A stretch of 64,000 nucleotides of DNA from Hydrogenophaga sp. Lineage in GTDB: Bacteria; Pseudomonadota; Gammaproteobacteria; Burkholderiales; Burkholderiaceae_C. Each line of letters starts with the position of its first letter. The first letter of the stretch is position 1. The DNA lies in the NCBI GenBank assembly GCA_018993155.1, contig JAGKSX010000041.1, forward strand, positions 1-64,000. Reading direction: 5' to 3'. Both the position numbers and the translations under genes were made by a program. This document shows positions 6,007-28,950 of the stretch, piece by piece. A model generated the notes under the pieces. It made no database searches. It saw only the letters and a list, made by a program, of their open reading frames with translations, and was not told the origin of the DNA.

Positions 6007-6026
6007 CAAACACACGTTTGAAACGA
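6007..6026. promoter_or_regulatory. Operator-like motif, copy 2 (candidate TetR site)
   Basis: The 20 bases read CAAACA-CAC-GTTTGAAACGA, including the perfect short palindrome CGTTTGAAACG. It lies in the divergent region between tetR (start 5941) and the Bug receptor (start 6152). It matches the site at 5187 except for three central bases. Confidence 0.6.
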
Positions 6027-6151
6027 TGGTTGCAATTCGGGCGGGCGCGCACTACGATGTCAAATTGCAGGGCCCGACATCACGGCCCGGCGACCGTCAT
6101 CAACCAGCCCGATTCAAGACAACAACTCGACGAGACAAGTCCCTCCACACC

Positions 6152-9857: not shown

Positions 9858-9912
9858 ACGAGATGAACAATTGATTGAGAAGGTGGAGTGCCGGGTGTCT
9901 GTCCCTGACTCT

Positions 9913-12101: not shown

Positions 12102-12105
12102 GTGC

Positions 12106-13263
12106 TTACCGTGTCATGTCGATGCCGGCCAGACGCAGGCCTTGATCGGCGATGCGCATGCGGTCGTTGAGGTAGCGAAAACGCCCGAAGGCCCAGGTGA
12201 TCAGCGGCCGCGCCACGTCCAGGCTGGTGGGCCATTGCCTCGAGAACCAGTCGTAGCGGCAGGCCCAGGTCTGGGTCTGGTCGCTGATAAAGCGGACGTT
12301 GTGCTCCCATTGGCGGATGGCGCGCGCCACGTCGGCTTCCTGTCGCAGGTGATGCGCGAGGGCATAGGCGTTGATCAGTGTGAGGCCCGCGCCTTGGCCG
12401 AGCGTGGGAGGGAGACCGTGCGCCGCGTCGCCCAGGATGGCGACGTTCTTCATGGCCCAGTGCGGGCAGTTGACCACACCGTAGTTGTATTGAGTGGCCG
12501 GCGCCTGGCTCAACGCCTGCATGAGGCCCGCAAGCTCGGGAAAGCGCGCGGACCAGTCGGCTGCGTCCAGCGGCAGCTTCTTGGCTGTGGCATCGCGCTC
12601 AGGGGCCACCATGTACACGTAGGTGGAATCAGGACCTGCCGGGGTCACGCCAATGCGCCGGTTGCCTGACCAGTGCTCCACGGTCTTGTTCTCGGGCGTG
12701 AACTCGCGCCCCTGGATCAGGAAGCGGTCGATGATGGTGGGCAGCACGCGAAAGCCGCTGCGCATGGGCAGGGAGTTGCGGACCGCCGAGTTCACGCCAT
12801 CGGCGCCCACAACCAGGTCGGCCGTCGAAGCCGCACCCTTCTGGGTGCGCAGCGCGTAGCGCCCGCCCTGCTCGGTCACGCCCGTCACGGTGGAATCCGT
12901 CACGATTTCTGCACCCTCGGCAAGGGCAACGTCGCGCAGAGCCTCAATCACGGCCTGGCGTGAGAACACATGTACGCGCGACAGACCTGCCAGCGAACGT
13001 TGCTGGCGCAAAGAGCCATCCGGGAAGCGGATCTCCGCACGTTGCAGTTGCAGGCCAAGTGGAGCCATGGCGTCGAAGACGCCCAATTGCTCCAACACCT
13101 CGATGCTGTTGTTCTTGATGTAAATGCCGGCACCGATTTCGCGGATCTGGTCACCGCGTTCGTGCACACGCACCTTCCATCCATCGCGGGCCAGCAAGGC
13201 GGCGGTTGCGAGGCCGCCAATGCCGCCGCCGGCGATCTCGGCCATGCGTTGTGGCGCGCTCAT
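12106..13263 (-). CDS. FAD-dependent aromatic hydroxylase (salicylate/6-hydroxynicotinate monooxygenase-like)
   Basis: A 385-residue group A flavoprotein monooxygenase. The ADP-binding fold appears at the N-terminus (AGGGIGGLATAALLARDGW), followed by VFSRQAVIEAL, DLVVGADGVNSAVR and the FAD ribityl motif GDAAHGLPPTLGQGAGL. Such enzymes use NAD(P)H and oxygen to ortho-hydroxylate a phenolic or hydroxypyridine ring. The start at 13263 has AGGAGG seven bases upstream; the first glycine motif begins close to it. It stands between the fused dioxygenase and coxG and probably makes the substrate for ring cleavage. The first Gly of GxGxxG is preceded by Ala-Gly rather than the usual Ile-Val-Gly. Confidence 0.85.
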   Translation of the reverse strand: MSAPQRMAEIAGGGIGGLATAALLARDGWKVRVHERGDQIREIGAGIYIKNNSIEVLEQLGVFDAMAPLGLQLQRAEIRFPDGSLRQQRSLAGLSRVHVFSRQAVIEALRDVALAEGAEIVTDSTVTGVTEQGGRYALRTQKGAASTADLVVGADGVNSAVRNSLPMRSGFRVLPTIIDRFLIQGREFTPENKTVEHWSGNRRIGVTPAGPDSTYVYMVAPERDATAKKLPLDAADWSARFPELAGLMQALSQAPATQYNYGVVNCPHWAMKNVAILGDAAHGLPPTLGQGAGLTLINAYALAHHLRQEADVARAIRQWEHNVRFISDQTQTWACRYDWFSRQWPTSLDVARPLITWAFGRFRYLNDRMRIADQGLRLAGIDMTR

Positions 13264-13367
13264 GCCTGCACCTCCTTGCGCGGGTTGGTCGCCGGCGTGG
13301 TGGTGGGACAAGTGAGGTCAAAGTTAATGTGAGGCATAGAGTGACTCTTGGTGAAGATTTCGTCGGC

Positions 13368-14467
13368 TCAGGCGCTTTTCTTGCGCTGTAGGTTGACCTG
13401 GGTGGCTGCACCCGCCGTGAGCAGTGCATGGATGTGGAACTCATCGCGCAGGCGTTCAGTGTCGAAGGCGACCAACGCCTGGCGCTCGTCTTCGGCCAGC
13501 GCATAGTTCTCGGCCCAGGCCAGCGGGTCGGCGATGAAGCGACGAGCCTCCTCGGGCAAGGTGCGCAAATGCAGCAGGGCCTGCACCAGCGGCACGCGCC
13601 CGTTGGGCAGCGCGGGATAGATCAAGGCATGGTCTTCGGTGATCGGGTTGGGGGTTTCCAGATCCCAAGCCAGCGTGGCGTAGGTGTGGTGCCACGATGG
13701 TTCAAAATGCGCCGCAAACGGTTTGCGGTCGCCCATGGCGCCCGCGAGCATGAGTGTGGATCGCAGCTCGATGTTGCCGCTGCGGTCCAGCGATTGCTCG
13801 CTCAGACCCAGCAGTTGCTGCAGGTCTCCTTCGCACAGCCGGTCGTAGAGTCCGCGGTCGGTTTCCACGTCGGGGTTCGGGTAGTGGCGCGTGCCGGGGT
13901 AGTGCGACAACCCGCCGCTGGCGATCAGGATGGCACGCTTGCCCAGCTTGCACAGCGCGCGTTCCAGCGCCTGGCCGAAGGCGAAACAGCGTGTGGGCGC
14001 GGGCTGGGGCGGCATGTAGGCATTGACGAACAAGGCCAGCATCGGCATGTCGCGTGTGAAGCCCATCTGTTCGTAGGGAATGGTGAAGGCCGTCTGCAGT
14101 TTTGCGTCGAGGGTAAAGGCCAGATCGAAACCCAGGGCGCCCATCTCTGGCACGAGCGCGTAGCCCAGGTCGCCATCCAATGCCCAGTCGCCCCGGTGCT
14201 TGTGCATACCGTCGGCGCGCCGGGCCGCGTGCACGCAGAAGGGAGGCACGCTGTGGGTCACGAAATGGTCACCATGGTCGTTGGAGATCACGATCACGCA
14301 GTCCGCCTTCTTGGCCAGGAATACTTGGCCAATGGCCCGCAATTGCAAGTGAACCCGATCGACCTGGGCCAGGTCTTCAGTGTCGGGGCGTGACAGCAAT
14401 TGCGGTGCGTGAGGAACGGCGGCTGCTGCGACGACACCCGCGCGCTTGTGGTGGATGGAGACGGTGT

Positions 14468-14471
<4 letters not shown>
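13368..14471 (-). CDS. Fused class III extradiol dioxygenase (LigB domain plus LigA-like C-terminus)
   Basis: A 367-residue ring-cleaving dioxygenase of the LigAB superfamily. Residues 1-275 form the Fe(II)-binding LigB domain: VPHAPQLL, ISNDHGDHF and SGGLSHYPGTRHYP carry the conserved His residues. The last 80 residues (LAWAENYALAEDERQALV, FHIHALL) look like the small LigA subunit, which is separate in protocatechuate 4,5-dioxygenase and fused in gallate dioxygenases. The start is a TTG overlapping the coxS stop as TTGA; no ATG exists in the supported region. The neighbouring deaminase-like and FAH genes suggest an aminated or heteroaromatic diol or aminophenol substrate. Confidence 0.82.
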
Positions 14472-14961
<490 letters not shown>

Positions 14962-14965
<4 letters not shown>

Positions 14966-15804
14966 GATTGCGGGGCGAGGGCTTGTTGCAGTGCATCGAT
15001 GGCGTTGACGGCGTGGCGATGCGCATCGAGAAGGCCCAACTCCGGCCACGCGGCGGCGATGTCCTGACGCGCCAGGTCCATCCACCGTTCGCGCGGCATC
15101 CGGGTTGAGGTTTGCAGGCTTTCGGCAAGGGTGGGCAGCGCCACTGGACGCTCGCCGTGCGCGCCCACCCAGCAGCGCCAACCATCGGCGCGTTGCACGA
15201 CGATGGCCGAACACATGGCGTACTCACCCGCCCGGTGCATGAGCTTGGCGCGACCCCACCGGTGCAGCTGGATGTCGACCGTGTCCAGCGTCAGGGCCAC
15301 AGCCAGCTCGTCCACGGCGCGCGCTGTGTGGAGTGGGCCCAGGATGAAGTCGTGGACCGCCATGCGCCGCATGCCGCGTTTGCTGACCAGCTCAATTTGT
15401 GCGCCCAATGCGCAAAAGAGCAATGGCCAGTCGCCTTTGGGGTCGGCCTGCACGATGCTGCCAACTGCCGTGCCTCGGTTGCGCACGGCGGGAAAGGCAA
15501 TCTGCCGGGCATGCGCGGCCAGCAGCGCCGCCGCTGCGGGATGCTGCGCGGAGTGGACGGCGGCGAGCTGCGAGTGGCGCACCAATGCGCCGATGCGAAG
15601 GCCCTGGTGCCATTCCATCTGTCCCAGCGCTTCGATGCGGTTGATGTCCAGCAGCGCGTGAGGCGATGCCATGCGATACCGCAGCAGTGGCAGCAGGCTC
15701 TGGCCACCGGCCAGCACCTGGGCATCACTGCCCAGTGCTGCAAGCAGGTCCAGCGCTTCGTCAAGTGTTGTCGGGCGGCGCAGTTCAAACGGTGCCGGTT
15801 TCAT
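14962..15804 (-). CDS. FAD-binding medium subunit of a xanthine-dehydrogenase-type hydroxylase (CoxM-like)
   Basis: A 280-residue FAD subunit. The FAD-binding motif LAGGQSLLPLLRYRMA is near residue 32 and the second, RNRGTAVGSIVQADPKGDWPLL, near 110; both are typical of CoxM/NdhF. The C-terminal CO_deh_flav_C domain is present. ATGA overlap with the coxL stub upstream and coxS downstream shows the ancestral L-M-S operon order. The family call is firm. Whether a working hydroxylase forms is doubtful because the large subunit gene is truncated. Confidence 0.9.
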
Positions 15805-16986: not shown

Positions 16987-19002
16987 CTAGTCAAGGAAAG
17001 ACAGAGGTCGGGCATCCGTCAGGCCCAACGCACCCTGGGCCACAAGCGTTCTCCACCGGCAGAGGTCGTTGTCGACCTTGGTGCGCAACGCATCGGGCGT
17101 GCCAGGCTCCACCCTGGCGCCATGGTTCTCGAATTGAGCGACCACTGCCGCGTCGGTCAAAGCGTCGTTCAGTGCCTGGTTCAACTTGGCGAGCGTTGCA
17201 GACGGCGTGTGAGCCGGCGCGAACAGGCCATACCACTGCGTGACGTCCACGCCGTCGATCCCGCCTTCTGCCAGCGTGGGCAACGCGGGCAGGCTGGGCA
17301 AGCGACTGGTGCCAGCCACCCCCATGGCGCGCAGCTGGCCGCTGTGAACGAACGGATGGGCGGTGAACAGGCTGGGGAACATGACCTGCGTGCGTCCGCT
17401 CACCACGTCGGCAATGGCCGGCGCCGCGCCGTCGAACTTCACACTGGCCATGCCCGCGCCGCTGCCCAGCAGGAACAGCGCCGCCGCAAAATGGGGCGGC
17501 GTGCCGTCACCCGCCGAGGCGTAGATCAGACTGCCGGGATTCGTCTTCAGTTGCGACACCAGGTCCTGAACGCGGGACGCGGAGACACTCGGGTGGACCA
17601 CCATCAAGGTCGGCGATGAGCCCACCAGGCCGATCGGTTCGAAGTCCTTGACGGGGTCGTAGCCCAGTTTCTGCAGCGCGGGGTTCATCGCGTGCGTGCC
17701 CACGTAGCCCAACATCAACGTGTGACCATCGGGCTCCGCTCGGGCGACAAATTCGCTGGCAATGGCGCCGTTCGCGCCCGCCCGGTTGTCCACCAGGACC
17801 TCCTGCCCGAGCAGCCGCCCCATCTTGCTGGCGATGATTCGGGCCATGGTGTCGTTCCCGCCGCCGGCGGCGGTCGGGACGATGATGGTGATCGGTTTGC
17901 GTGCCGGGGCTGCGGCTTCCTCGGGACGCGGGAACACATAGTCCGGCAGGTGCATCTCGCCCTGCATGATCTTGCGGGCCGTGCGGACCAGCGCGGCCCC
18001 CTTGACCTCGGCCGCGTCCCCCTGGCCGATGAGTTCCACCTCGACATCGATCTGTCCCGCGGGATGCAGCACCACCAGCTTGTGGCGGCCCGCTTCGCGC
18101 GCCATGCCGCTGGCAACCGTGCCGGGCAGCGCGAAGGCGCAGGCCACACCAATGGCTCCTGTGACGGCGTGCGACGCGTGGCAACGGTGTGGCGTGAAGT
18201 ACCTTGAGGTGACGCTGTTGGGTGAGTCGCCCTCGCTGACCAGCACGGGTTTCGGTATGACACTTTGGGCGACATCGCCCAGCCCCATCATGCGGCCGGC
18301 CTGCAGGCGCAGCGATTCGATGCGCGCCAGGAGCGCGGTGTTGGCATCCAGCGCCACCGGCTTTTCGCGGCCAGTGACGCCCAGATCGGCCGCGCGAACG
18401 ATCATGAGTGGCATCGCCGCATCGATGCAGGTCACGGCGATGCCGTCGATGTGGTCGATGCGCTGGCCGGTGGGAAACACGTGGCCCGTCACCGCGCCCC
18501 ACGCGTCCAGGAAGTCCAGCAGGACGGGGGCCGCCGTGCCGGCGACGCCGTCGATGCGCGCGTCGCCCTCGTACGTCACGCGGCCGTTCGGTGTGCGCAC
18601 GGTCACATCGATGCGCGAACGGGTGTTGACATTGAACACACGAACCTTGGTCACGCCATCCTGCGCCGTCACGAGGCCCTGCTCGATGCCGAACGGCGCC
18701 ACGCCCGAGAGCATGTTGCCGCAGTTGGGCCGGGTGTCGACGGAACGGTGGCCAACGCCGACCTGCGCGAACAGGTAGTCGAGATCGCAGTCGGGCTGGG
18801 TGGATCTCGAGACGATGGCCACCTTGCTGTTCAAAGTGCTGCCACCGCCCACGCCGTCGAGCTGCAACGGGTCGGAGGCCCCGATCGCACCGATCAGGGC
18901 CTGGTCGCGGGCTTCGTCACCTTCAGGCAGCCATTCGCGCAGAAAGAAGGGGCCGCGCGAGGTGCCGGCGCGCATGAGGACACAGGGAATGACTTTGTTC
19001 AT
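16987..19002 (-). CDS. GalD/PrpF-family isomerase fused to a Bug/TctC solute-binding domain
   Basis: A 671-residue single frame joining two normally separate proteins. Residues 1-358 are a full PrpF/GalD-type proline-racemase-fold isomerase (CVLMRAGTSRGPFF, GVGGGSTLNSKVA, catalytic-type RPNCGNMLSGV with Cys94, HRCHASHAVTGA). This family includes 4-oxalomesaconate tautomerase and aconitate delta-isomerase. After a short PEEAAAPA linker, residues 369-671 are a complete mature Bug receptor (KPITIIVPTAAGGGNDTMAR, VLVDNRAGANGAIASEF, EPDGHTLMLGY), close to the stand-alone receptor at 24578. The receptor part has no signal peptide, so the fusion should be cytoplasmic. The ATG at 19002 is used; an ATG three codons earlier is possible. 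A LysR-type box lies just upstream. Confidence 0.88.
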   Translation of the reverse strand: MNKVIPCVLMRAGTSRGPFFLREWLPEGDEARDQALIGAIGASDPLQLDGVGGGSTLNSKVAIVSRSTQPDCDLDYLFAQVGVGHRSVDTRPNCGNMLSGVAPFGIEQGLVTAQDGVTKVRVFNVNTRSRIDVTVRTPNGRVTYEGDARIDGVAGTAAPVLLDFLDAWGAVTGHVFPTGQRIDHIDGIAVTCIDAAMPLMIVRAADLGVTGREKPVALDANTALLARIESLRLQAGRMMGLGDVAQSVIPKPVLVSEGDSPNSVTSRYFTPHRCHASHAVTGAIGVACAFALPGTVASGMAREAGRHKLVVLHPAGQIDVEVELIGQGDAAEVKGAALVRTARKIMQGEMHLPDYVFPRPEEAAAPARKPITIIVPTAAGGGNDTMARIIASKMGRLLGQEVLVDNRAGANGAIASEFVARAEPDGHTLMLGYVGTHAMNPALQKLGYDPVKDFEPIGLVGSSPTLMVVHPSVSASRVQDLVSQLKTNPGSLIYASAGDGTPPHFAAALFLLGSGAGMASVKFDGAAPAIADVVSGRTQVMFPSLFTAHPFVHSGQLRAMGVAGTSRLPSLPALPTLAEGGIDGVDVTQWYGLFAPAHTPSATLAKLNQALNDALTDAAVVAQFENHGARVEPGTPDALRTKVDNDLCRWRTLVAQGALGLTDARPLSFLD

Positions 19003-19033
19003 GGGCCGCATTCTCAAGAGCCGCTGTGCTTCT

Positions 19034-19061
19034 GTGAATTGCATAGTTGAGAAGCATTGAT
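19034..19061 (-). promoter_or_regulatory. 28-bp LysR-type box, copy A (upstream of the isomerase-receptor fusion)
   Basis: Read on the minus strand it starts ATCAATG and ends ATGCAATTCAC with TTC and CAA between. It matches copy C at 24483 in 22 of 28 positions. It ends 32 bases before the fusion gene's ATG. Confidence 0.65.
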
Positions 19062-19108
19062 CCATGGTTTGCAATAAACGGCGGGCCGCTCATTGATGCA
19101 CCAAAAGC

Positions 19109-19136
19109 ATCACTTGTTCTCAACATTGCAATTTAC
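19109..19136 (+). promoter_or_regulatory. 28-bp LysR-type box, copy B (upstream of the hydratase operon)
   Basis: Starts ATCA and ends TTGCAATTTAC, with TTCTCAA between. It matches copy C in 21 of 28 positions and is 72 bases upstream of the hydratase start. An additional reverse-oriented GTGCATCAATG lies at 19091-19101, echoing the left end of copy C. Confidence 0.6.
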
Positions 19137-19207
19137 TTCGCCACCGGATGAACGGAAACTGCGCCCATCGCCCCGCCCCTCCAGCCCCGAGATCGAAGGA
19201 CATCCGC

Positions 19208-20068
19208 ATGACCCAGACCACCGACGACCTGCGAGCATGGATCGGCCGCAGCGAGACGGTGCACGACACCGTCAGCCCCACGCCCGTGGCTGCCCTGACC
19301 GCCACGCTCGACCACCCCGCTGCCGACACCGCGCCCGGCACGCTGCTGCCACCGCTCTGGCACTGGTTGTACTTCCTGCCCCTGCACCGGCAATCCGACA
19401 TCGGCGCAGACGGCCACGCCCGGCGCGGCGGCTTCCTTCCCCCGGTGCCGCTGCCGCGCCGCATGTGGGCCGGCAGCCAGTTCGAATTCATCTCCCCGAT
19501 CCGCGTGGGCGATCAGGTCGCCCGCACATCCACCATCGACGACGTGAGCAGCAAGGAAGGCCGGACCGGCAAGCTCGTGTTCGTGAAAGTGCGCCACGAG
19601 GTGCGGTGCAACGGCGAAGCCGCACCGGCCCTGGTGGAGTTCCACGACATCGTCTACCGCGACGCCCAGCAGCCTGGCGATGTGGCACCTCCCCCGCAAG
19701 CGGCTCCCGCGCAGGCGGCCTGGCGCCGCCAGATCGTGCCGGACGACGTGCTGCTGTTCCGCTACTCGGCGCTCACGTTCAACGGCCACCGAATCCACTA
19801 CGACCGGCGGTACGTGACCCAGGTCGAAGGCTACCCGGGCCTCATCGTCCATGGCCCGCTGATTGCCACGCTGCTGCTGGACCTGTTGCGCCGGGAGATG
19901 CCCACGGCCGACGTGGCCAGCTTCCGCTTCAAGGCGGTGCGCCCCACCTTCGACCTGCACGCCTTTCATGTGCAAGGTGAGCCCGCGGCCGACGGCAAGA
20001 CCGTGCGCCTGTGGGCGAGCGACCACGAAGGGTGGCTCACGATGGACGCCACCGTGGTGCTGCGCTGA
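19208..20068 (+). CDS. MaoC/FAS1-type dehydratase (itaconyl-/mesaconyl-CoA hydratase-like)
   Basis: A 286-residue double hot-dog hydratase. The N-terminal half has LLPPLWHWLYFLP and a GGFLPPVPLPRRMWAGSQ segment typical of mesaconyl-C4-CoA and itaconyl-CoA hydratases. The C-terminal half carries the MaoC hydratase motif FRYSALTFNGHRIHYDRRYV and LIVHGPLIATLLL. It would add water to an unsaturated C5 dicarboxyl-CoA to give citramalyl- or methylmalyl-CoA. The start at 19208 has GAAGGA seven bases upstream. First gene of a four-gene operon with CoA-transferase, CitE-like lyase and a fumarase-superfamily enzyme, preceded by a LysR box. Confidence 0.85.
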   Translation: MTQTTDDLRAWIGRSETVHDTVSPTPVAALTATLDHPAADTAPGTLLPPLWHWLYFLPLHRQSDIGADGHARRGGFLPPVPLPRRMWAGSQFEFISPIRVGDQVARTSTIDDVSSKEGRTGKLVFVKVRHEVRCNGEAAPALVEFHDIVYRDAQQPGDVAPPPQAAPAQAAWRRQIVPDDVLLFRYSALTFNGHRIHYDRRYVTQVEGYPGLIVHGPLIATLLLDLLRREMPTADVASFRFKAVRPTFDLHAFHVQGEPAADGKTVRLWASDHEGWLTMDATVVLR

Positions 20069-20098
20069 TTTCTTTGACCACGATCACCCGAGACCCTC

Positions 20099-21298
20099 AT
20101 GCAGCCACTTGCAGGCATCACCGTCGTCACCCTGGAGCACGCCATCGCCGCGCCCTTCGCCACGCGCCAGCTGGCCGACCTGGGTGCGCGCGTCATCAAG
20201 ATCGAGCGCCCCGGCACGGGCGATTTCGCGCGCGGCTACGACCAGCGGGTGCGTGGCCTGGCATCGCACTTCGTCTGGACCAACCGCTCCAAGGAGAGCC
20301 TCACGCTCGACGTCAAACACCCCGAGGCCGCCCGCATCCTGGAGCGGCTCGTGCTGGAGAAGGCCGACGTGGTGGTGCAGAACCTCGCGCCCGGTGCGGC
20401 GGCCCGGCTTGGCTTGGGCCACGAAGCGCTGTCGGCGGTCAAGCCCGGCCTGATCGTCTGCGACATCTCGGGATACGGCGATGACCGGGAGAACCCGGGC
20501 CCCTACCGCGACAAGAAGGCCTACGACCTGCTGATCCAGAGCGAAGCGGGGTTCGTCTCGGTGACCGGCACGGCGGACGAGCCCTGCAAGGCAGGCCCGT
20601 CGATCGCGGACATCGCCGCAGGCATGTACGCCTACAGCAACATCCTCGCGGCGCTGATGCAGCGCAGCCAGACCGGCCGGGGCCAGCGCATCGACATCTC
20701 CATGCTGGAGTCGCTCGCCGAGTGGACCAGCTACCCGCTCTACTACGCCTTCGAAGGCGCCGCACCGCCCCCGCGCACCGGCGCCAGCCACGCCACGATC
20801 TATCCGTATGGCCCGTTTCCGGTCGGGCCGGCGGAGCAAGGCGCCCACGTGATGCTGGGCCTGCAGAACGAGCGCGAATGGGTCAGCTTCTGTGAGAAGG
20901 TGCTGCACCAGCCGGCCCTGGCCACCGACCCGCGCTTCACCGCCAACTTCAAGCGCGTCGCCGAGCGCACCGCCTTGCGCCAGATCATCGTGGACACCTT
21001 CCGGCCCCTGACGGTGGCCGAGGTGGAGGCCCGGCTGGAGGTGGCGCAGATCGCCAACGCCCGGGTGAACACCATGGCCGACGTCTGGGCACACCCGCAA
21101 CTCCAGGCGCGCCAGCGCTGGACCGAGGTGGGCTCGCCCCAGGGGCCGCTGCCGGCCCTGCTGCCACCGGGCACCTGGAACGAAGGCCCGCGCATGGACC
21201 CGGTGCCCGCACTGGGCGAGCACACCGATGCGATCCTGGCCGAACTGGGTTACGGCGCGGACGGCATTGCCGCGCTGCGTGCGGCCAAGGCCATCTGA
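20099..21298 (+). CDS. Class III (CaiB/BaiF) CoA-transferase
   Basis: A 399-residue family III CoA-transferase. Visible elements are ATRQLADLGARVIKIERPGTGD at the N-terminus, NRSKESLTLDVKHPE, and the catalytic Asp in KKAYDLLIQSEAG. The family moves CoA from a donor such as succinyl-CoA onto a carboxylate through an Asp thioester. Between a C5 dicarboxyl-CoA hydratase and a citramalyl-CoA-lyase-like gene, itaconate or mesaconate activation is the best guess. Thirty bases separate it from the hydratase, and it is ten bases from the lyase gene. Confidence 0.9.
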   Translation: MQPLAGITVVTLEHAIAAPFATRQLADLGARVIKIERPGTGDFARGYDQRVRGLASHFVWTNRSKESLTLDVKHPEAARILERLVLEKADVVVQNLAPGAAARLGLGHEALSAVKPGLIVCDISGYGDDRENPGPYRDKKAYDLLIQSEAGFVSVTGTADEPCKAGPSIADIAAGMYAYSNILAALMQRSQTGRGQRIDISMLESLAEWTSYPLYYAFEGAAPPPRTGASHATIYPYGPFPVGPAEQGAHVMLGLQNEREWVSFCEKVLHQPALATDPRFTANFKRVAERTALRQIIVDTFRPLTVAEVEARLEVAQIANARVNTMADVWAHPQLQARQRWTEVGSPQGPLPALLPPGTWNEGPRMDPVPALGEHTDAILAELGYGADGIAALRAAKAI

Positions 21299-21308
21299 GG
21301 TCGTGGCC

Positions 21309-22139
21309 ATGTCGACGCCCCTCGCCTGCGCGCGCACCTACCTCTTCGTGCCCGGCACTCGGCCCGATCGCTTCGGCAAGGCCTTGGTCAGTGGCGCGGA
21401 TGCGGTGGTGCTGGACCTCGAGGACGCCGTGGCGCCCGAGCACAAGACCGCCGCGCGCGCCCACGTGGTCGGTTGGCTGCAGACCGCCGGGCCAGCCGAC
21501 CGCTCCCGCTGCGTGGTGCGCATCAACGATTCGACTTCGGACTGGTTTGCGGACGACCTGACCGCCCTGCTGGGCACCGGCGTGGCGCAGATCATGCTGC
21601 CCAAGACCGAACAGGCGCAGCAAGTCCGCTTCGTCGTGGAGGCCTTGCCGGGCGTTCAGGTGCTGGCCCTCATCGAAAGCGCCAGGGGCGTGGCCCAGGT
21701 GGACGAGATTGCGGGCGCCATCGGTGTGGCCAGGCTCGTGTTCGGCACCCTGGACTTCGCCCTGGACCTGGACCTGGACATCCGCCGCGACGCTGTCGGT
21801 CTGAGCCACGCGGCGGCGCGCATCGCACTGGCCTCGCGCCTGGCCGACCTCCCCGCGCCCGTGGCCGGCGTCACCCCGCAACTGGACGACGAGGCACGGC
21901 TCATGGCCGACCTGGCCTGGGCGCGTTGCCACGGCTTCGGCGCCAAGCTGTGCATTCACCCGAACCAGGTCCTGCCGATCCACCGCGCGCTGCAGCCCGC
22001 CGAGGCCGAACTCGCCTGGGCCCGGCGCGTGCTGGCGGCCGATGCGGCGTCGCCCGGCGCGGCCCGGCTCGACGGCCGCATGGTCGATGCGCCCGTGGTG
22101 CGCCAGGCGCGCCGAACGCTGCGGGCCGCGGGGCATTGA
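21309..22139 (+). CDS. CitE/HpcH-type lyase (citramalyl-/malyl-CoA lyase-like)
   Basis: A 276-residue TIM-barrel lyase of the citrate lyase beta-subunit family. It shows TYLFVPGTRPDRFGKALVSGADAVVLDLEDAVAPEHK, MLPKTEQAQQV, ALIESARGV with the metal-binding Glu, and GTLDFALDLDLD with the conserved Asp. Cofactor-free relatives cleave citramalyl-CoA or malyl-CoA into acetyl-CoA plus an oxoacid. The hydratase/CoA-transferase/lyase order matches the known itaconate degradation module (Ich, Ict, Ccl). The start is the ATG at 21309, ten bases after the CoA-transferase stop. Confidence 0.88.
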   Translation: MSTPLACARTYLFVPGTRPDRFGKALVSGADAVVLDLEDAVAPEHKTAARAHVVGWLQTAGPADRSRCVVRINDSTSDWFADDLTALLGTGVAQIMLPKTEQAQQVRFVVEALPGVQVLALIESARGVAQVDEIAGAIGVARLVFGTLDFALDLDLDIRRDAVGLSHAAARIALASRLADLPAPVAGVTPQLDDEARLMADLAWARCHGFGAKLCIHPNQVLPIHRALQPAEAELAWARRVLAADAASPGAARLDGRMVDAPVVRQARRTLRAAGH

Positions 22140-22183
22140 ACCCGGGCCTCATCCCCACCGATTACCACAGAGAAAGAAGCAAC

Positions 22184-23530
22184 ATGGCATCCACCATCAT
22201 CGATTCGCGCATCTTCGGCGACATGTTCAGCGATGCGCGCATGCGCGAGGTCTGGTCCGACGAGAACCGCACGGCCAAGTACCTCGACATCGAGCGCGCG
22301 CTGGCCAAGGTTCAGGGACAGCTCGGCATCATTCCTCAGGAAGCGGCCGACGAAATCGTCAGGAACTGCGAGCTGTCGCAGATCGACTGGGCCAAGCTCA
22401 AGGCCAAGACCGAACAGATCGGCTACCCGATCATCGCGGTCGTCAATCAGATCAATGCCAACTGCCGCGACAAGCTCGGTGAGTACTGCCACTGGGGTGC
22501 CACCACGCAGGACATCACCGACACCGCCGCCGTCCTTCAGATGCGAGAGGGCCTGGCGCTGGTGGAGCAGGACCTGAACGAGATCGGCGAAGCGCTGGCC
22601 GCGCTGGCCCGCAAGTACCGGGACACGCCCGTGATCGGCCGCTCCAACCTGCAGCAGGCCACGCCCATCACCTTCGGCTACAAGATGGCCAGCATCCTGG
22701 CCGGCATCGACCGGCACCGCGAGCGGCTGCAGCAGCTCAAACCGCGCGTGCTGATGGGCGAATTCGGTGGCGCCTCGGGCACCCTGTCGTCGCTGGAGAG
22801 CGGCGCCATGGAGACGCAGGCTGGATTGATGAAGGAGCTGGGCCTCGCCCAGCCACTGATCTCGTGGCACACCGTGCGCGACACCATCGCCGAGGTCGGC
22901 GCGTTCCTGGGGCTTGTCGGCGGCTCGCTCGGCAAGATCGCCATGGACGTCAAGCTCATGATGCAGACGGAAGTGGCCGAGGTGTTCGAGCCCTATGCGC
23001 CGGGGCGCGGCTCCTCCTCCACCATGCCGCAGAAGCGCAACCCGATTTCCTGCCTCTACATCCACGCCAACATCTCGGTGGCCCGCCAGCATGCCGCGGC
23101 CCTGATGGACGCCATGGTCGCCGACCACGAGCGCTCCACCGGTCCCTGGGAAATCGAATGGGTGTCGCTGCCCGAGATCTTCTGCCTGATGTCTGGGGCG
23201 CTGAAACAGACCAAGTTCGTGCTCAAGGGCCTCGAAGTGGACGCTTCCCGCATGCGCGCCAACATCGACATCACCAACGGGCTGGTGATGTCGGAAGCGG
23301 TGATGATGGGCCTGGGTCCCTACATCGGCCGCGAGTACGCACACGACCTGGTCTACGACCTGTGCCGTCAGGCATTGAAGGAAGACCGGCCGCTGATCGA
23401 AATCCTGGCCGTGCACCCGGAAATCACGCCCCATGTGACCCGTGCCCAGCTCGAAGCCATGTGCGAGCCGGCGAACCACCTGGGCCAGGCCGGCGTCATG
23501 GTCGATCGCGTGCTCGCGGCGCGGCGCTGA
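22184..23530 (+). CDS. Fumarase/aspartase-superfamily enzyme, CMLE-like (candidate trans-aconitate decarboxylase)
   Basis: A 448-residue member of the adenylosuccinate lyase/3-carboxymuconate cycloisomerase branch. The hallmarks are YCHWGATTQDITDTA, SNLQQATPITFGYK and the signature loop GRGSSSTMPQKRNPIS. After the loop Asn the usual Glu five residues on is Leu, as in CMLE-type enzymes that do not run the classical elimination. The fungal itaconate enzyme Tad1 (trans-aconitate decarboxylase) belongs to this superfamily. Next to an itaconate-type CoA module and a PrpF-like isomerase, that activity is an attractive but untested assignment. Alternatives are a C-N lyase for an aspartate derivative or a lactonizing enzyme. 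The 3' end overlaps lysR by 35 bases. Confidence 0.8.
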   Translation: MASTIIDSRIFGDMFSDARMREVWSDENRTAKYLDIERALAKVQGQLGIIPQEAADEIVRNCELSQIDWAKLKAKTEQIGYPIIAVVNQINANCRDKLGEYCHWGATTQDITDTAAVLQMREGLALVEQDLNEIGEALAALARKYRDTPVIGRSNLQQATPITFGYKMASILAGIDRHRERLQQLKPRVLMGEFGGASGTLSSLESGAMETQAGLMKELGLAQPLISWHTVRDTIAEVGAFLGLVGGSLGKIAMDVKLMMQTEVAEVFEPYAPGRGSSSTMPQKRNPISCLYIHANISVARQHAAALMDAMVADHERSTGPWEIEWVSLPEIFCLMSGALKQTKFVLKGLEVDASRMRANIDITNGLVMSEAVMMGLGPYIGREYAHDLVYDLCRQALKEDRPLIEILAVHPEITPHVTRAQLEAMCEPANHLGQAGVMVDRVLAARR

Positions 23531-24446
23531 CGCCTTCGGCGGCCTTGCCGCGTTTTGCTTTCATCTCCGCAAAGAACTCATACAACTGCAGCGCCGCCGG
23601 CGAGAGCGAGCGACCCTTGCGCCGAATCAACCCGACCTTGCGGGTGATGATCGGATCCACCAGCGGCACGCTCACCAGCAGCGGGTGACCGGGAGCGGGC
23701 ATGGCCATCGAAGGCACCGCTGCCACGCCCAGACCTGCTTCGACCAGGCCCAGCATGGTCGTCACATGCTGCGCTTCGTAGATGTTCTGCGGCAGACCGG
23801 GCTGGCCCGACAGCGCCTGGTCGATCAGCAGCCGGTTGCCCGAGGCCTTGCTCACGGAGATGTAGTCGTACCTGGCCAGATCGGCCCAGGACACGCGGCG
23901 TTTTCGGGCAATGGCGTGATCGCGGCGACAGGCCGCGACGAAGCGCTCCTCCAGAAGCGGCTTGAACTCGATGTCGGGCTCCTGGCTGCCCATGAAATTG
24001 AGCCCGAAATCCGCCTCGCCGCGCGACACGGCCGACAGCACCTCGTTCGCGCTGGCATCGAAGATCTTCACCCGGATCTTGGGGTACTGTTCCCGGTAGC
24101 GCGAGATCACGTGCGAGATGAAGTAATACACCGTGGACGGCACGCAGGCGATGGTGACCTCGCCCATGCGGGTGCTGCCCACCCCCCGGATGCCGAGCAG
24201 GGTGTTGTCCAGCTCGTCCAGCAATTGCTGCACTTTTCGGTCGAAGTCGCGGCCGACGGCTGTGAGTTCGACCTTGCGCGTCGTGCGCTCCAGCAACTTG
24301 ACCCCCAGGGCTTCTTCCAGTTTTTCGATGCGGCGGCTGAACGCGGGTTGAGACACGTGCAGCGCGTTGGCCGCCTTGCGAAAACTGCTGAGTTCGGCCA
24401 CGGTGCGGAATGCCTGCAGGTCGTTGAGGTTGAAGTTGATGGCCAT
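23496..24446 (-). CDS. LysR-family transcriptional regulator
   Basis: A 316-residue LysR regulator when started at MAINFNLNDLQAF. The N-terminal winged helix-turn-helix is clear (FRTVAELSSFRKAANALHVSQPAFSRRIEKLEEALG), followed by a periplasmic-binding-type effector domain of normal length. It is divergent from the stand-alone Bug gene, and a 28-bp box in the shared promoter recurs twice in the promoter region between the fusion gene and the hydratase. It is therefore the likely regulator of the whole 16.9-25.6 kb locus, probably as activator responding to a di- or tricarboxylate. Confidence 0.9.
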   Translation of the reverse strand: MAINFNLNDLQAFRTVAELSSFRKAANALHVSQPAFSRRIEKLEEALGVKLLERTTRKVELTAVGRDFDRKVQQLLDELDNTLLGIRGVGSTRMGEVTIACVPSTVYYFISHVISRYREQYPKIRVKIFDASANEVLSAVSRGEADFGLNFMGSQEPDIEFKPLLEERFVAACRRDHAIARKRRVSWADLARYDYISVSKASGNRLLIDQALSGQPGLPQNIYEAQHVTTMLGLVEAGLGVAAVPSMAMPAPGHPLLVSVPLVDPIITRKVGLIRRKGRSLSPAALQLYEFFAEMKAKRGKAAEGVSAAPRARDRP

Positions 24447-24482
24447 GGCAGCGGTGGGTTTTCTGGTTGATCCAAATTGTGC

Positions 24483-24510
24483 ATCAATGATTCGCAAACA
24501 TGCAATTTAC
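24483..24510 (+). promoter_or_regulatory. 28-bp LysR-type box, copy C (lysR/Bug divergent promoter)
   Basis: Starts ATCAATGATTC and ends ATGCAATTTAC. It is the reference copy for boxes A and B. It lies 68 bases upstream of the Bug start and 37 bases upstream of the lysR start, a spacing close to that of copy B to the hydratase. Confidence 0.65.
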
Positions 24511-24577
24511 TTGGCATAAGACAGCGGCGACGATACGTTCCGAGATTCAAGACCACCCCCACCCATCGGAGAGACAA

Positions 24578-25555
24578 ATGCAGATTCAAAAGAGACAAGT
24601 GCTGAGCGCTGTTGCCGTTGCGATCGCCGCCACCTGGGCGTTCGGTAGCGCTCAGGCGGCTTACCCCGAGAGGACCATCAGCATCGTCGTTCCGACGTCG
24701 GCGGGCGGTGCCAACGATGCCATGGCCCGGACCATCGGCCAGGCCCTGACGCTGCTTCTCAAGCAGTCCGTCATCGTGGACAACAAGGCCGGCGGCAATG
24801 GCGCGATCGCCAGCGAGTTCGTGGCGCGCGCGGCGCCCGACGGTTACACGCTGATGCTGGGCTACATCGCCACCCATGCGATGAACCCCTCGCTGCAGAA
24901 GCTGCGCTACGACCCCGTCAAGGACTTCGAGCCGGTGGGCATGGTGGGCTATTCCGCCACGCTCATGGTGGCCAACACCCAGGTAGCGGCCAACAACGCA
25001 AAGGAGTTGGTGACCTTCATGAAGGCCAACCCGGACAAGATCAACTACGCGTCGGCCGGCAACGGCACGGCCCCGCACTTCGCGGCGGAGATGTTCAAGC
25101 TGTCCACCGGCACCGCCATGACGCATGTCCCCTACAAGGGCTCTGCCCCCGCCGTGACCGACACGATCGCCGGCCAGACGCAGGTGATGTTCCCCAGCCT
25201 CTTTACCGCGATGCCGAACGTGAAGAACGGCAAGCTCAAGGCACTGGGCCTGGCCGGCTCCAAGCGGTCGCCGTTGATGCCCGATGTGCCCACGCTCAAG
25301 GAGCAGGGCATCAACAATGTGGACGTGTCGCAGTGGTACGCCATCTTCGCGCCCGCCAAGACGCCCAAGCCCGTGCTGGAGCAGCTGAACAAGGCGCTGA
25401 ATCAGGTGCTCGCCGACCCCGCCACCGTCAAACGCCTGGAAGAGCATGGCGCCGAAGTCGACACGATGAGCCTGGAGGAAATGCGCGGTTTCGTGCAGGC
25501 CGAACAGGTGAAGTGGAAGCAGGTGGTGCAAGCCGCGAAACTGAAGGCCGACTGA
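24578..25555 (+). CDS. Bug/TctC-family periplasmic solute-binding protein
   Basis: A 325-residue receptor with a clear Sec signal peptide (KRQVLSAVAVAIAATWAFGSAQA) and mature start YPERTISIVVPTSAGGANDAMAR. VIVDNKAGGNGAIASEF and APDGYTLMLGY follow. It is closely related to the receptor half of the fusion protein at 16987 (shared SEFVARA.PDG, THAMNP, YDPVKDFEP), so one is probably a duplicate of the other. GGAGA precedes the ATG at 24578. Expected role: capture of the locus substrate, possibly aconitate or itaconate. No TctA/TctB genes are in the window. Confidence 0.92.
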   Translation: MQIQKRQVLSAVAVAIAATWAFGSAQAAYPERTISIVVPTSAGGANDAMARTIGQALTLLLKQSVIVDNKAGGNGAIASEFVARAAPDGYTLMLGYIATHAMNPSLQKLRYDPVKDFEPVGMVGYSATLMVANTQVAANNAKELVTFMKANPDKINYASAGNGTAPHFAAEMFKLSTGTAMTHVPYKGSAPAVTDTIAGQTQVMFPSLFTAMPNVKNGKLKALGLAGSKRSPLMPDVPTLKEQGINNVDVSQWYAIFAPAKTPKPVLEQLNKALNQVLADPATVKRLEEHGAEVDTMSLEEMRGFVQAEQVKWKQVVQAAKLKAD

Positions 25556-25587
25556 AGTTCCAATCGACGCAGCGGCTCCCGGTCAGA

Positions 25588-26670
25588 TCACCTCCCGCCG
25601 GTCCGCTTGTGCCGCAAGGCCCCGGGCGGATGCCCGATGACCCTTTTGAACGCGCGGCTGAACGAGGCCTCCGAGTCGTAGCCCAGGCGGCTGGCGGCCA
25701 CGGCCACGCGCATGCCTTCGCGCTCGATCCAGCGGCGCGCCTGGAACATCCGCACGCGGGTCACGTACCGGGCCGGGCTCTCGCCCAAGGTGCGCGTGAA
25801 CAGCTCGGCGAAGCTGGAGCGCGAGGCACCCATCAGGTCCGCCAGCGCCGGCACCGTCCAATCGCGTTCGGGCTCGGTGTGGATCGCGGCGATCACCTTG
25901 CCGATGCGGGGGCATTGCACCGCCGCGATCCAGCCACTGGCGTCGCTGCAGGCGCACTCGACCCAGGCGCGGATGATGCAGGCGGCCAGCACATCGGCCA
26001 GGCGCGCGAGCATGCCGCAGGCACCGATGCGGTCCAGCGCGACCTCGCGCTCCATCGCTTCGAGCAACGCGGGCACGGAGGGGTCTCGCGTGGCCAGTTC
26101 GTTGGCGCGCATCGCCTCCGGCATCATCGCCAGCAGGGGGTGCAGGGGATCGAGGTTGAAGCGCATGGCGCCGCAGAAGACGATGTCGTTCGGCGCGCCC
26201 GCAGGCCCTTCGTCCGGCGTTGGGGGCGATGAGGCCGATGAGGCCGGGGAAGCGGGCTGCGGCGCGCCACCGATGAGGTAGATGTTGTCCGCCACCGGGG
26301 TGCGCGAGAGCGATTCGATGTCGACGCACGGCACGTCGGGCGCGCTGGCCAGGATGTGAAAGCTGCCCCGCGGCAGCAGCACCGCATCGCCAGCGTCCAG
26401 CCGCACCCAGTCGTGACCGGGCAGCCAGAGCCAGCAGCCGCCGCGCGCCACGAAATGGAAACGGGCCTCCGGGCGCGCGGGGTAGGCCACGGCCCAGGGC
26501 GGCTGCATCACGCAACGGCCGTATTCGACGCCGTCCAGCCGCAAGCCCAGCAGGATGCGGCTCAGCAGGTCGGCGGGGCGGGGCGGCGCGTCCACCGCGC
26601 CACGGGCGGCGCTGCCCTCTGGCAGGGCGACAGATTCGGAGGAATAGTCAAGCATTTCGGCTTTTCCCAC
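25588..26670 (-). CDS. AraC-family regulator with cupin sensor domain
   Basis: A 360-residue regulator. Residues 30-200 form a cupin-type sensor (PEARFHFVARGGCWLWLPG, LDAGDAVLLPRGSFHIL), interrupted by a Ser/Pro-rich low-complexity insert. The C-terminal 100 residues are a double helix-turn-helix AraC domain (VPALADLMGASRSSFAELFTRTLGESPARYV, VAVAASRLGYDSEASFSRAFKRVIGHPPG). This architecture is common for regulators adjacent to MFS exporters or oxidoreductases. It is divergent from the MFS gene with 62 bases between, so it likely controls it. The start is GTG at 26670 or ATG five codons later. Confidence 0.88.
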   Translation of the reverse strand: MGKAEMLDYSSESVALPEGSAARGAVDAPPRPADLLSRILLGLRLDGVEYGRCVMQPPWAVAYPARPEARFHFVARGGCWLWLPGHDWVRLDAGDAVLLPRGSFHILASAPDVPCVDIESLSRTPVADNIYLIGGAPQPASPASSASSPPTPDEGPAGAPNDIVFCGAMRFNLDPLHPLLAMMPEAMRANELATRDPSVPALLEAMEREVALDRIGACGMLARLADVLAACIIRAWVECACSDASGWIAAVQCPRIGKVIAAIHTEPERDWTVPALADLMGASRSSFAELFTRTLGESPARYVTRVRMFQARRWIEREGMRVAVAASRLGYDSEASFSRAFKRVIGHPPGALRHKRTGGR

Positions 26671-26732
26671 ATGGAAACGCCGGCATCTTATCCCTAAGCT
26701 GGCGGTCTTGCTGGCTTCCCCCCGTTCAATTC

Positions 26733-27989
26733 ATGTCCTCCTCCTGCTCCACCTGCATCGATCCCTCCCAAGCCGTGGCCGCACCGCCGCCGCCGGCGAA
26801 CGCGGATTCGCCCCACTGGGCCGCCGTCGGTTCGCTGGCGCTGGGCGTTTTCGGCCTGGTGACCGCCGAATTCCTGCCGGCCAGCCTGTTGACGGCCATG
26901 GCCGCGGACCTGGGCATCAGCAACGGCGCCGCGGGCCAGACGGTCACGGCGACGGCGCTGGTGGGCGCGGTCGCCGCTCCCGCCTTTCCGCTGCTGACGC
27001 GGCGGCTGGACCGCAAGTGGGTGATGCTGGCGCTGAGCCTGCTGCTGGTCGTCTCCAACCTGATGGCCGCGACGGCCACCTCGCTGCCCGTGCTGCTGGT
27101 GGCCCGCGTGCTGCTGGGCTTGGCGCTGGGCGGCTTCTGGGCCCTGGCGGGCGCGCTGGCCCTGCGGCTGGTGCCCGCGGACCGATTCGCCCGCGCCATG
27201 TCCCTGATCCTCACGGGGGTGTCGGTGGCCACGGTGTGCGCCGCCCCCATCGGCGCGTGGATGGGCGATCTGTGGGGGTGGCGCAGCGCCTTCGTTGCCG
27301 CAGGTGTGGTCAGCGTGGTGACGCTGGTCGCGCAGGCCATCACGCTGCCCGCGCTGCCGCCGCGCGACCACGCCAATCTGCGCGTGCTGGGCCAGTTGCT
27401 GCTGCGGCCGCAGGTGCGCATGGCCCTGCTGGCGGTGCTGCTGGTGATCTCGGGCCATTTCGCGGGCTTCACCTATATCCGGCCGCTGATGGAAAACGTC
27501 ACCCACCTGTCCGTCCAGGCGATCACGGTGGTGCTGCTGGGCTACGGCATCGGGGGCTTCTTCGGCAACCTGGCGGGTGGCTACCTGGCCGAGCGCAGTG
27601 AGCGCCGCGCCATCGTGGCGGGGGGCACGCTGGTCGTCCTCATGGCGGGCAGCCTGTTGCTGGCGGGTTCGTCAGGGCTGGTGACCGCCGTGGCGGTGGC
27701 GCTCTGGGGTTTTGCGTTCGGCGCTTTCCCGGTCGGTTTCCAGACCTGGGTGGTGCGGGCCGCGCCCGACCACGCCGAAGGCGCGGGCGGCCTGATGGTG
27801 GCGGCGTTCCAGATCGCCATTGCCAGCGGCGCGGTCGGCGGCGGGCTGCTGGTCGATCACGTGGGCGCGCTCGGTGCGCCGGCCTTCGCGCTGGTCGCCA
27901 TCGTGCTGGGCACCTTGCTCACCCTGCGCCACGGTCCCCGGCCGCAGGGCCAACGGGCCGCCGCCCAGCCGGCGCCGGTTCATCACTGA
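26733..27989 (+). CDS. MFS transporter, DHA1-type drug/metabolite exporter
   Basis: A 418-residue inner-membrane carrier with about 12 hydrophobic segments. The first helix includes GSLALGVFGLVTAEFLPASLL, a sequence characteristic of the arabinose-efflux/purine-nucleoside-efflux group (YdhP/NepI/AraJ-like). A short cytoplasmic motif, TRRLDRKW, lies between helices 2 and 3. The N-terminal 30 residues are hydrophilic with several Cys and Pro. It is divergent from the AraC regulator. The exported compound is unknown; the DHA1 assignment is firm. Confidence 0.88.
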   Translation: MSSSCSTCIDPSQAVAAPPPPANADSPHWAAVGSLALGVFGLVTAEFLPASLLTAMAADLGISNGAAGQTVTATALVGAVAAPAFPLLTRRLDRKWVMLALSLLLVVSNLMAATATSLPVLLVARVLLGLALGGFWALAGALALRLVPADRFARAMSLILTGVSVATVCAAPIGAWMGDLWGWRSAFVAAGVVSVVTLVAQAITLPALPPRDHANLRVLGQLLLRPQVRMALLAVLLVISGHFAGFTYIRPLMENVTHLSVQAITVVLLGYGIGGFFGNLAGGYLAERSERRAIVAGGTLVVLMAGSLLLAGSSGLVTAVAVALWGFAFGAFPVGFQTWVVRAAPDHAEGAGGLMVAAFQIAIASGAVGGGLLVDHVGALGAPAFALVAIVLGTLLTLRHGPRPQGQRAAAQPAPVHH

Positions 27990-27990
27990 A

Positions 27991-28950
27991 TCAGGGCGTC
28001 GTCGGGTCTGAAGCCGGGGCATTGCGCACGCGCCGCTGGCGCGCCTGCGGCAGCGACGCGTGCTGGTGCAAGGCGAGGCGCAGGGCCGTCGCGGCCACAC
28101 CGAGGGCGCGGTCGGTGCGGCGGGCCAGGTAGGTTTGCGTGTGCGCCACGCCCTGCGGACCGAGGGCCGTGGCGGCCAGGGGCACCAGTTGCTTCTCGGC
28201 CAGTTCGCGCTCGATCACCCACCTCGGCAGGCGGCCCCAACCCACCCCGCCCAGGATCAGGGCCCGCTTGGCGTCCTGCGTGCCCACGCGCAGCGTCTGG
28301 GGCGACAGCACACCGAAGTCGCGTCCCTCGGACAGCGGTGTGGGATCCTCCAGCACGATCTGCACGTGGTCGGCCAGCTCGACGCTGGTGAGCACCTTGC
28401 GGCGCCGGGCCAGCGCATGGCTGGCGGCGGCCACCGCCACGATGGGCACCCGCTGCAGCGCCTCGGTCTCGATGCGCGGATCGAGAAAGTCTTCGCCGGC
28501 CATGATGGCCAGGTCGCACTGCCGCTCGCGCAGCGCTTGCAGCGGACCACCCAGTGGCGCGACCGCCAGGCGCAGCCGAACCGACGGCCAGGTCTCGCGC
28601 ACCTCCTTGAGCGCGGCGGCCACCACGGGCAGCGGGTAGAGCGTGTCCACCATCAGCGACAGCTCGATCTCCACGCCCTCGCCCAGGCCGCGCGCGCGTG
28701 CCCGCATGAAGTCCACCTTGAGCAGCACGGCGTGCGCGTCTTCCAGCAAGGCCAGGCCGGCCGGCGTGAGTGTGGGCCGGTGGCCGCCGCGATCGAAGAG
28801 GCTCACGTCGAGCTGGTGTTCGAGGTTGGCGATCGCGTGGCTCACGGCCGACTGCGCGCGCCGCAGGCGCGTGGCACCGGCCCGAAAGCTGCCGGCCTCG
28901 GCCACGGTCACGAACATGCGAATCTGATCGAGGGTGAGCGCGTCCAGCAT
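27991..28950 (-). CDS. LysR-family transcriptional regulator
   Basis: A 319-residue LysR protein. The N-terminal helix-turn-helix reads [33 protein letters not shown], which is less canonical than usual in the recognition helix. The effector domain follows with normal length. It is convergent with the MFS gene (one base between stops) and divergent from wrbA, with two TTCCG(T/C)AGATCA direct repeats in the shared promoter. Probable role: control of wrbA and the MFS gene coupled to it. Confidence 0.88.

Follow-up and report, generated by a model that had tools for sequence, protein, structure and literature searches.

What is a lyase resembling a fungal trans-aconitate decarboxylase doing beside bacterial genes that look suited to the breakdown of itaconate? 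The question is raised by nucleotides 16987-25555 of a Hydrogenophaga sp. contig (JAGKSX010000041.1, assembly GCA_018993155.1); the window, as we use the term, is the whole stretch of DNA analysed, 64,000 nucleotides in length (positions 1 to 64,000). The locus holds the lyase gene, three genes for coenzyme A (CoA) activation and cleavage, a LysR-type regulator gene, a stand-alone Bug receptor gene, and a gene in which a PrpF-family isomerase is fused to a second Bug receptor. We propose that it specifies a catabolic route from trans-aconitate through itaconate to pyruvate and acetyl-CoA, and we consider this highly probable. An initial annotation had suggested that isomerisation and decarboxylation of trans-aconitate are joined here to itaconate degradation. 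That suggestion is supported by the clade that the lyase shares with Tad1 of Ustilago maydis, by the likeness of the adjoining genes to ich, ict and ccl, and by the conserved neighbourhood, which together make this route the best reading of the locus.

Among proteins of solved structure, the predicted lyase found its best match in Tad1 (9h3i; 542 bits, E 1.3e-161), followed by 3c8t (467 bits), 3-carboxy-cis,cis-muconate cycloisomerase (CMLE) 1re5 (382), CMLE 1q5n (348), CreD (264) and adenylosuccinate lyases (181 at most). Pairwise identity was 56% to Tad1, 48% to 3c8t and 42% to 1re5. A maximum likelihood tree of 85 rows, thinned from 141, was calculated, in which 33 bacterial lyases, the window lyase included, had been picked by at least 70% identity; most, not all, of them come from loci with the CoA module. 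Sister to these 33 stood Tad1 together with a plasmid-borne lyase of Komagataeibacter, and the resulting 35-row branch was supported at 100/100. The CMLE references formed a separate 100/100 clade, and 3c8t together with lyases of 47-54% identity lay outside the 35-row branch. Such a tree had been named beforehand as a test that could overturn the proposal; the lyase groups with Tad1, not with carbon-nitrogen (C-N) lyases. Tad1 still joined the 33 after removal of four long branches, the Komagataeibacter row among them (Shimodaira-Hasegawa-like approximate likelihood ratio test 100). Topologies with Tad1 outside a group of the 33, the other lyases and 3c8t were rejected, not strongly, by the approximately unbiased test (p 0.048 with 25 other lyases, 0.023 with 23, two basal rows having been removed).

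At 22 positions, one of them an insertion column, Tad1 has the same residue as at least 32 of the 33 clade lyases, a residue whose frequency does not exceed 10% in either the 26 other lyases or the 14 CMLE rows. The Komagataeibacter row, which was left out of both comparison sets, carries 14 of the 22 Tad1-shared residues. The shared positions include Ser277 of the window lyase in the signature loop (Ser320 of Tad1), Asn155 (His or Trp in the others) and Glu323 (His in the others). Tad1 Ser320 is Ala in the deposited chain 9h4h, as read off the printed alignment. Judged by its sequence, the lyase is a bacterial relative of Ustilago maydis Tad1. The Komagataeibacter gene, on a K. oboediens conjugative plasmid (L137, 8001-9422), lies amid transposase and toxin-antitoxin genes.

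According to the available text of PMC4720413, Tad1 turns trans-aconitate, not cis-aconitate, into itaconate and works together with the PrpF-family protein Adi1 in U. maydis. The adi1/tad1 cluster thus shares with the bacterial locus a PrpF-family isomerase and a Tad1-type lyase, the two lyases falling in one clade. The fungus makes and exports itaconate, whereas the bacterial locus would feed a degradation module and has its isomerase fused to a Bug domain.

The features of the locus, with the starts of the PrpF-Bug, LysR and stand-alone Bug genes chosen by us, are as follows.

16987-19002, minus strand: PrpF-Bug fusion, 671 amino acids counted from the ATG at 19002, in an open reading frame (ORF) open to 19074; Pfam PrpF and TctC in one frame
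17944-18993, minus strand: PrpF domain of the fusion (PF04303, E 1.5e-109)
17041-17844, minus strand: Bug/TctC domain of the fusion (PF03401, E 1.9e-54), with no signal peptide before the domain
19208-20068, plus strand: predicted Ich-like MaoC itaconyl-CoA hydratase (matches to solved chains 8khg and 8huc)
20099-21298, plus strand: predicted Ict-like CaiB/BaiF class III CoA-transferase (PF02515, E 4.8e-101)
21309-22139, plus strand: predicted Ccl-like (S)-citramalyl-CoA lyase of the HpcH/HpaI (CitE) family (matches to 9nzb and 8khl)
22184-23530, plus strand: Tad, proposed trans-aconitate decarboxylase of the fumarase/adenylosuccinate lyase superfamily (match to Tad1 9h3i; clade with Tad1)
23496-24443, minus strand: LysR-type regulator (PF00126 and PF03466)
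24578-25555, plus strand: stand-alone Bug receptor (PF03401, E 2.4e-70), in an ORF open from 24500

Profile matches confirmed the families that had been listed for the locus (PrpF, a CMLE/fumarase-superfamily lyase, MaoC, class III CoA-transferase, CitE, Bug and LysR). The MaoC, CoA-transferase, CitE and lyase genes follow one another on the plus strand with gaps of 30, 10 and 44 bp. The PrpF-Bug gene runs opposite to MaoC, with 205 bp between their starts; at the other end the last 35 bp of the lyase gene are shared with the LysR gene, after which comes the stand-alone Bug gene. The lengths of the MaoC, CitE and lyase genes (861, 831 and 1347 nt) equal those annotated in Variovorax sp. SRS16.

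Solved structures gave the MaoC protein two matches only, 8khg (E 1.4e-71), which bears the name itaconyl-CoA hydratase, and 8huc; both we take to be Pseudomonas aeruginosa PA0878. For the CitE protein, 9nzb (E 4e-61) and 8khl (E 6e-61) head the solved matches, both under the name acyl-CoA lyase beta chain and presumably PA0883 of the same organism; on NF038242 (RipC_Ccl) the CitE protein scores 173 bits, the cut-off being 375. The class III CoA-transferase reaches no equivalog cut-off, and no chain named as an itaconate transferase is among its solved matches. A search of annotated plasmids gave 178 MaoC and 120 CoA-transferase records, many of the relatives lying outside Tad loci.

The module was further compared with four annotated clusters without Tad, from Burkholderia stagnalis, a Comamonadaceae bacterium, Eleftheria terrae and Phaeobacter inhibens. 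All four have the gene order MaoC, acyl-CoA dehydrogenase, CoA-transferase and CitE; Eleftheria has in addition a hydrolase gene ahead of CitE. Their proteins are 51-66% (MaoC), 66-71% (CoA-transferase) and 39-50% (CitE) identical to those of the window. The stretch FNGHRIHYD of the window MaoC protein is common to all of them. Their acyl-CoA dehydrogenase is absent from the window module, which has the lyase in its stead. Soil bacteria with an ich-mcd-ict-ccl gene make-up, as in these clusters, are described in PMC12290011, and P. putida given the P. aeruginosa genes needed ich, ict and ccl for efficient growth on itaconate, growing more slowly without ict (PMC9875883; both statements from the available text). 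The solved matches of MaoC and CitE and the four clusters support the naming of the module as Ict, Ich and Ccl in the initial annotation, and the three proteins look like their namesakes in the P. aeruginosa itaconate pathway. With that cluster (PA0878-PA0883, for itaconate and methylsuccinate) the window module shares homologous MaoC, class III CoA-transferase and CitE genes in the same relative order; it differs in having neither the acyl-CoA dehydrogenase nor the MmgE/PrpD isomerase, and in its added Tad-type lyase and PrpF isomerase.

Is this grouping of genes a matter of chance? From a scan of genomes the best 80 of 320 lyase relatives were kept, with 85-96% identity and, to judge by record titles, mostly from Comamonadaceae and other Burkholderiales; 66 of the loci have at least 4.5 kb of upstream DNA and are referred to as upstream-complete. 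At identity thresholds of 55% for MaoC, 60% for CoA-transferase and 40% for CitE, these genes were present in 62, 59 and 52 of the 66 loci, respectively, and all three in 50; LysR, at 40% identity or more, was present in 57. The Azospirillum and Bradyrhizobium plasmid loci, whose lyases are 74-75% identical, have MaoC, CoA-transferase and a DctA carrier, and CitE was recognised in the Bradyrhizobium plasmid locus, not in the two Azospirillum loci. The surroundings of 29 lyases with 43-55% identity were also fetched (a few lie near contig ends), and none of these lyases has MaoC, CitE or PrpF beside it; a distant CoA-transferase (29-30%) adjoins two of them, and several lie next to genes for class II fumarase or dicarboxylate carriers. 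Since the same genes recur beside close lyase relatives in many genomes, and MaoC, CitE and PrpF are missing beside the 29 distant ones, the grouping is not due to chance. A search at E 1e-110 of the 11 genomes listed for the same genus or family, within a sample of 399 genomes, gave no lyase relative, so the locus may have been acquired in the lineage of the window.

Some partial arrangements were also seen. Three loci (L154, 4923-9380; L144, 6097-9898; L065, 5963-10352) have MaoC, the lyase and a LysR gene, and neither CoA-transferase nor CitE, a CoA-transferase being on another contig of the genome. On plasmids, two lyases of about 51% identity (L139, 7980-12277; L143, 6493-9338, the latter annotated pcaB) lie beside class II fumarase genes, and the L139 lyase region is flanked by IS91 and integrase genes; possibly these are fumarate-releasing lyases without an assigned role.

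Two genes had been assumed for the PrpF isomerase and the first of the Bug receptors. They form instead one continuous reading frame, an ORF of 695 amino acids in which Pfam places PrpF at 28-377 and TctC at 411-678. The best solved match of the PrpF domain is YbhH (6otv, E 1.7e-118), followed by (4E)-oxalomesaconate isomerase 6p3j. Its Lys60 and Cys94 are invariant in 21 aligned fusions, and we read them, without an alignment, as corresponding to Lys66 and Cys100 in the titles of the LigU entries. All 38 loci with a close PrpF relative carry the Bug fusion (one is cut by a contig end), and the fused forms make up a single clade with 100/100 support (24 rows of a 55-row tree). The join consists of 15 hydrophilic residues in the window and of 16-27 hydrophilic residues in 41 of 43 distinct fused relatives. 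Two Ramlibacter copies (L026, 2568-5033; L030, 3633-5834) have a 38-residue join with a methionine and a signal-peptide-like hydrophobic stretch, and are sister to the other 22 fused rows. Their receptor half could start on its own, and the join is possibly an intermediate in the history of the fusion, which likely began when the isomerase came to be read on into a bug gene lying downstream, the signal peptide being lost afterwards.

Over 11 chosen pairs the ratio of nonsynonymous to synonymous substitution rates was 0.06-0.27 for the Bug half and 0.06-0.14 for the PrpF half, the synonymous rate exceeding 1 in several pairs; by these estimates the Bug half is under purifying selection. An AlphaFold model made from a 21-sequence alignment was good for the Bug half and poor for the first part of the PrpF half, so no arrangement of the domains is claimed; with no alignment, the mean predicted local distance difference test score was 35. 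Against solved Bug/TctC chains the modelled Bug half gave target-normalised template modelling scores of 0.70-0.93 over the first 17 ranks. The C-terminal half is thus predicted to have the fold of TctC/Bug proteins such as BugD, MatC and TBP. These are described as periplasmic or exported, whereas the Bug half here is joined to an enzyme and has no signal peptide. No export signal was seen ahead of the fusion by inspection (no signal-peptide predictor was used), so the fusion should be cytosolic.

The isomerase scores 488.8 bits on NF033377 (4-oxalomesaconate tautomerase), above the cut-off of 440, and its activity on aconitate is therefore suggested by the neighbourhood, not by the family. 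Could it instead belong to gallate breakdown, as a 4-oxalomesaconate tautomerase (GalD) whose gene happens to adjoin the itaconate genes? The tannase gene that follows the isomerase in Variovorax SRS16 and the LigB-type dioxygenase gene at 13368-14561 of the window would fit such a role. However, a relative of the SRS16 tannase occurs in none of the 80 genome loci, the window LigB protein scores 36 bits on the gallate dioxygenase model, which has a cut-off of 412, and a LigB domain is present in none of ten proteins scanned at 16987-28950. Nor does NF033377 separate the activities: the PrpF of the Azospirillum Tad operon also scores 484 on it, and Adi1 itself is, among known proteins, most like the oxalomesaconate tautomerase of P. 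putida (Table 1 of PMC4720413, as far as that paper was available). The fusion gene of Ramlibacter monticola lies on the strand of MaoC and stops immediately ahead of it. We regard a role in gallate breakdown as unlikely.

Several observations weigh against a trans-aconitate to itaconate route, and they concern the lyase, the isomerase, the module and transport in turn. Tad1 and the Komagataeibacter row were flagged as long branches in the lyase tree, and the CoA module is not beside the Komagataeibacter lyase, which is one of the 29 distant ones. The window lyase scores 356.5 bits on NCBIfam TIGR02426 (CMLE), 0.75 above the cut-off of 355.75, and an Azospirillum relative is annotated pcaB. 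PrpF-type genes occur in only 41 of the 80 loci, 38 of them close and three distant (about 35%, unfused), in two separate lineages; Azospirillum has a third, unfused PrpF lineage in the same gene run as Tad. Three of the 399 sampled genomes carry the fusion without a lyase match (E 1e-110), so the fusion is not tied to the Tad-type lyase alone; two of these genomes have an MmgE/PrpD gene less than 2.5 kb away from the fusion (L185, 5126-9334; L187, 4354-10310). A stand-alone PrpF in L191 is also near an MmgE/PrpD gene; that family takes in cis-aconitate decarboxylase and methylsuccinate isomerase.

As to the module, some gene of it is missing in 16 of the 66 upstream-complete loci (CitE in 14, CoA-transferase in seven, MaoC in four), and the neighbour counts were made without a coverage limit, the CoA-transferase match in L036 spanning one fifth of the protein. 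When nine distinct genomes were searched for a CoA-transferase, the identity was 77% in a control with the module in place, 67-71% in seven and 44% in one; two of the seven second loci (L198 and L199, in genomes G902 and G866) show one in-frame TGA. A CitE homologue lies elsewhere in eight of nine genomes lacking CitE at the locus (43-52%), and in others at 38-50%; two small Hylemonella genomes and a further genome gave no match. Identities of 38-52% are in any case no proof of function. Finally, neither TctA/TctB nor another carrier permease was seen within the cluster; five TctA genes are on other contigs of the genome, and a DctA-type carrier accompanies 16 of the 80 lyase relatives.

The TIGR02426 score bears on a second explanation, that the lyase is a CMLE (PcaB), or another fumarate-releasing C-N lyase, beside an ordinary itaconate cluster. 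Public records do call relatives pcaB or adenylosuccinate lyase family. This profile does not discriminate, since the non-module lyase L143 passes it too; NF006554 is missed by the window lyase (508 bits of 595). Set against this explanation are the tree, with its separate CMLE clade, the absence of named protocatechuate genes from all three annotated module loci, the pcaB label itself aside, and the lack of the module beside the less similar lyases, some of which have class II fumarase genes next to them. We judge either identity highly improbable. Equally little credence is given to a pathway for another C5 or C6 acid (for example methylated aconitate, mesaconate or citramalate) in which the lyase acts on a substituted trans-aconitate: PrpF enzymes include methylaconitate and methylitaconate isomerases, by the names of solved matches, and P. 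aeruginosa Ict also accepts methylsuccinate and citramalate (PMC12290011, available text), but the acyl-CoA dehydrogenase of the four non-Tad clusters is missing here and the MaoC protein fits an itaconyl-CoA hydratase.

The route from trans-aconitate to pyruvate and acetyl-CoA, with the substrates and direction of flux that we infer, would run as follows. trans-Aconitate would enter the cell by a carrier and be decarboxylated to itaconate by the lyase, as by Tad1 in U. maydis. The Ict-like CoA-transferase would convert itaconate and succinyl-CoA to itaconyl-CoA, which the Ich-like MaoC protein would isomerise and hydrate to (S)-citramalyl-CoA, and the Ccl-like CitE enzyme would split this into acetyl-CoA and pyruvate. 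The PrpF half would interconvert cis- and trans-aconitate, so that cis-aconitate could join the route or trans-aconitate drain into the tricarboxylic acid cycle. The fused Bug half, formerly a periplasmic receptor, would sit in the cytosol and probably bind the same acid; we are less confident of this role than of the pathway.

Import of a tricarboxylate by the Bug receptors, as had been suggested, holds up in part. The minus-strand Bug is joined to the isomerase and has no signal peptide, and is therefore unlikely to serve import, while the plus-strand, stand-alone Bug has a signal-peptide-like N-terminus with a hydrophobic segment (Kyte-Doolittle 2.65 over 11 residues). The latter and the LysR protein may act in sensing or uptake. 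LysR is likely a local activator; a LysR-style inverted-repeat pattern occurred at five sites in the window, against nine expected by chance, and at none in the cluster.

Bacterial use of trans-aconitate has been reported via isomerisation to cis-aconitate (PMC11495376; review PMC8871043, both in the text available). In Bacillus velezensis, tarR-tarAB likewise combines a PrpF-family isomerase and a regulator with trans-aconitate as food. That system differs in isomerising its substrate to cis-aconitate, and the accessible main text of PMC11495376 does not mention itaconate. For purple bacteria the reverse of an itaconate path has been discussed as a hypothesis (PMC8307300, available text). The literature was covered as open-licence PubMed Central text, a scope outside which subscription journals and preprints fall; in the text accessible there, neither a bacterial Tad nor a PrpF-Bug fusion was found. 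The ten papers naming trans-aconitate decarboxylase were fungal or applied itaconate work, a review of itaconate derivatives and a horse study. Searches for Variovorax, Comamonadaceae and Azospirillum in the same literature yielded no usable growth data.

A broader history may be sketched, in which reading of an aconitate isomerase gene ran on into the bug gene behind it, the signal peptide then disappeared, the receptor domain became an intracellular module capturing or sensing a tricarboxylate, and the smut-fungal tad1 was drawn from the same bacterial pathway lineage. Perhaps this is so; as a whole we put it forward tentatively and would sooner doubt than endorse it.

Elsewhere in the window, genes at 8994-15804 encode an FAH-family hydrolase, a member of the gamma-glutamyltranspeptidase family, CoxG, an FAD monooxygenase, the LigB-type dioxygenase and two molybdenum-hydroxylase subunits, and look like a separate ring-degradation cluster upstream. 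Another orphan Bug/TctC receptor gene (6026-7117) adjoins a putative cyclase gene.

The locus is a well-supported new combination of known kinds of enzyme, a putative bacterial Tad together with a conserved and unusual isomerase-receptor fusion. trans-Aconitate builds up in plants such as sugarcane and sorghum (PMC8871043) and inhibits aconitase and fumarase (PMC4720413), according to the available text of these papers. If the proposed route is correct, bacteria would have a second, decarboxylative way of using this acid beside its isomerisation to cis-aconitate, and the lyase would be the first bacterial trans-aconitate decarboxylase as far as the open-licence literature shows. Some genes that public records at present call pcaB or adenylosuccinate lyase family could receive new names. 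The locus would also supply enzymes for making itaconate and a possible origin, in bacteria, of the fungal pathway, and the fusion would be a testable case of an exported binding protein that has become a domain of a cytosolic enzyme.

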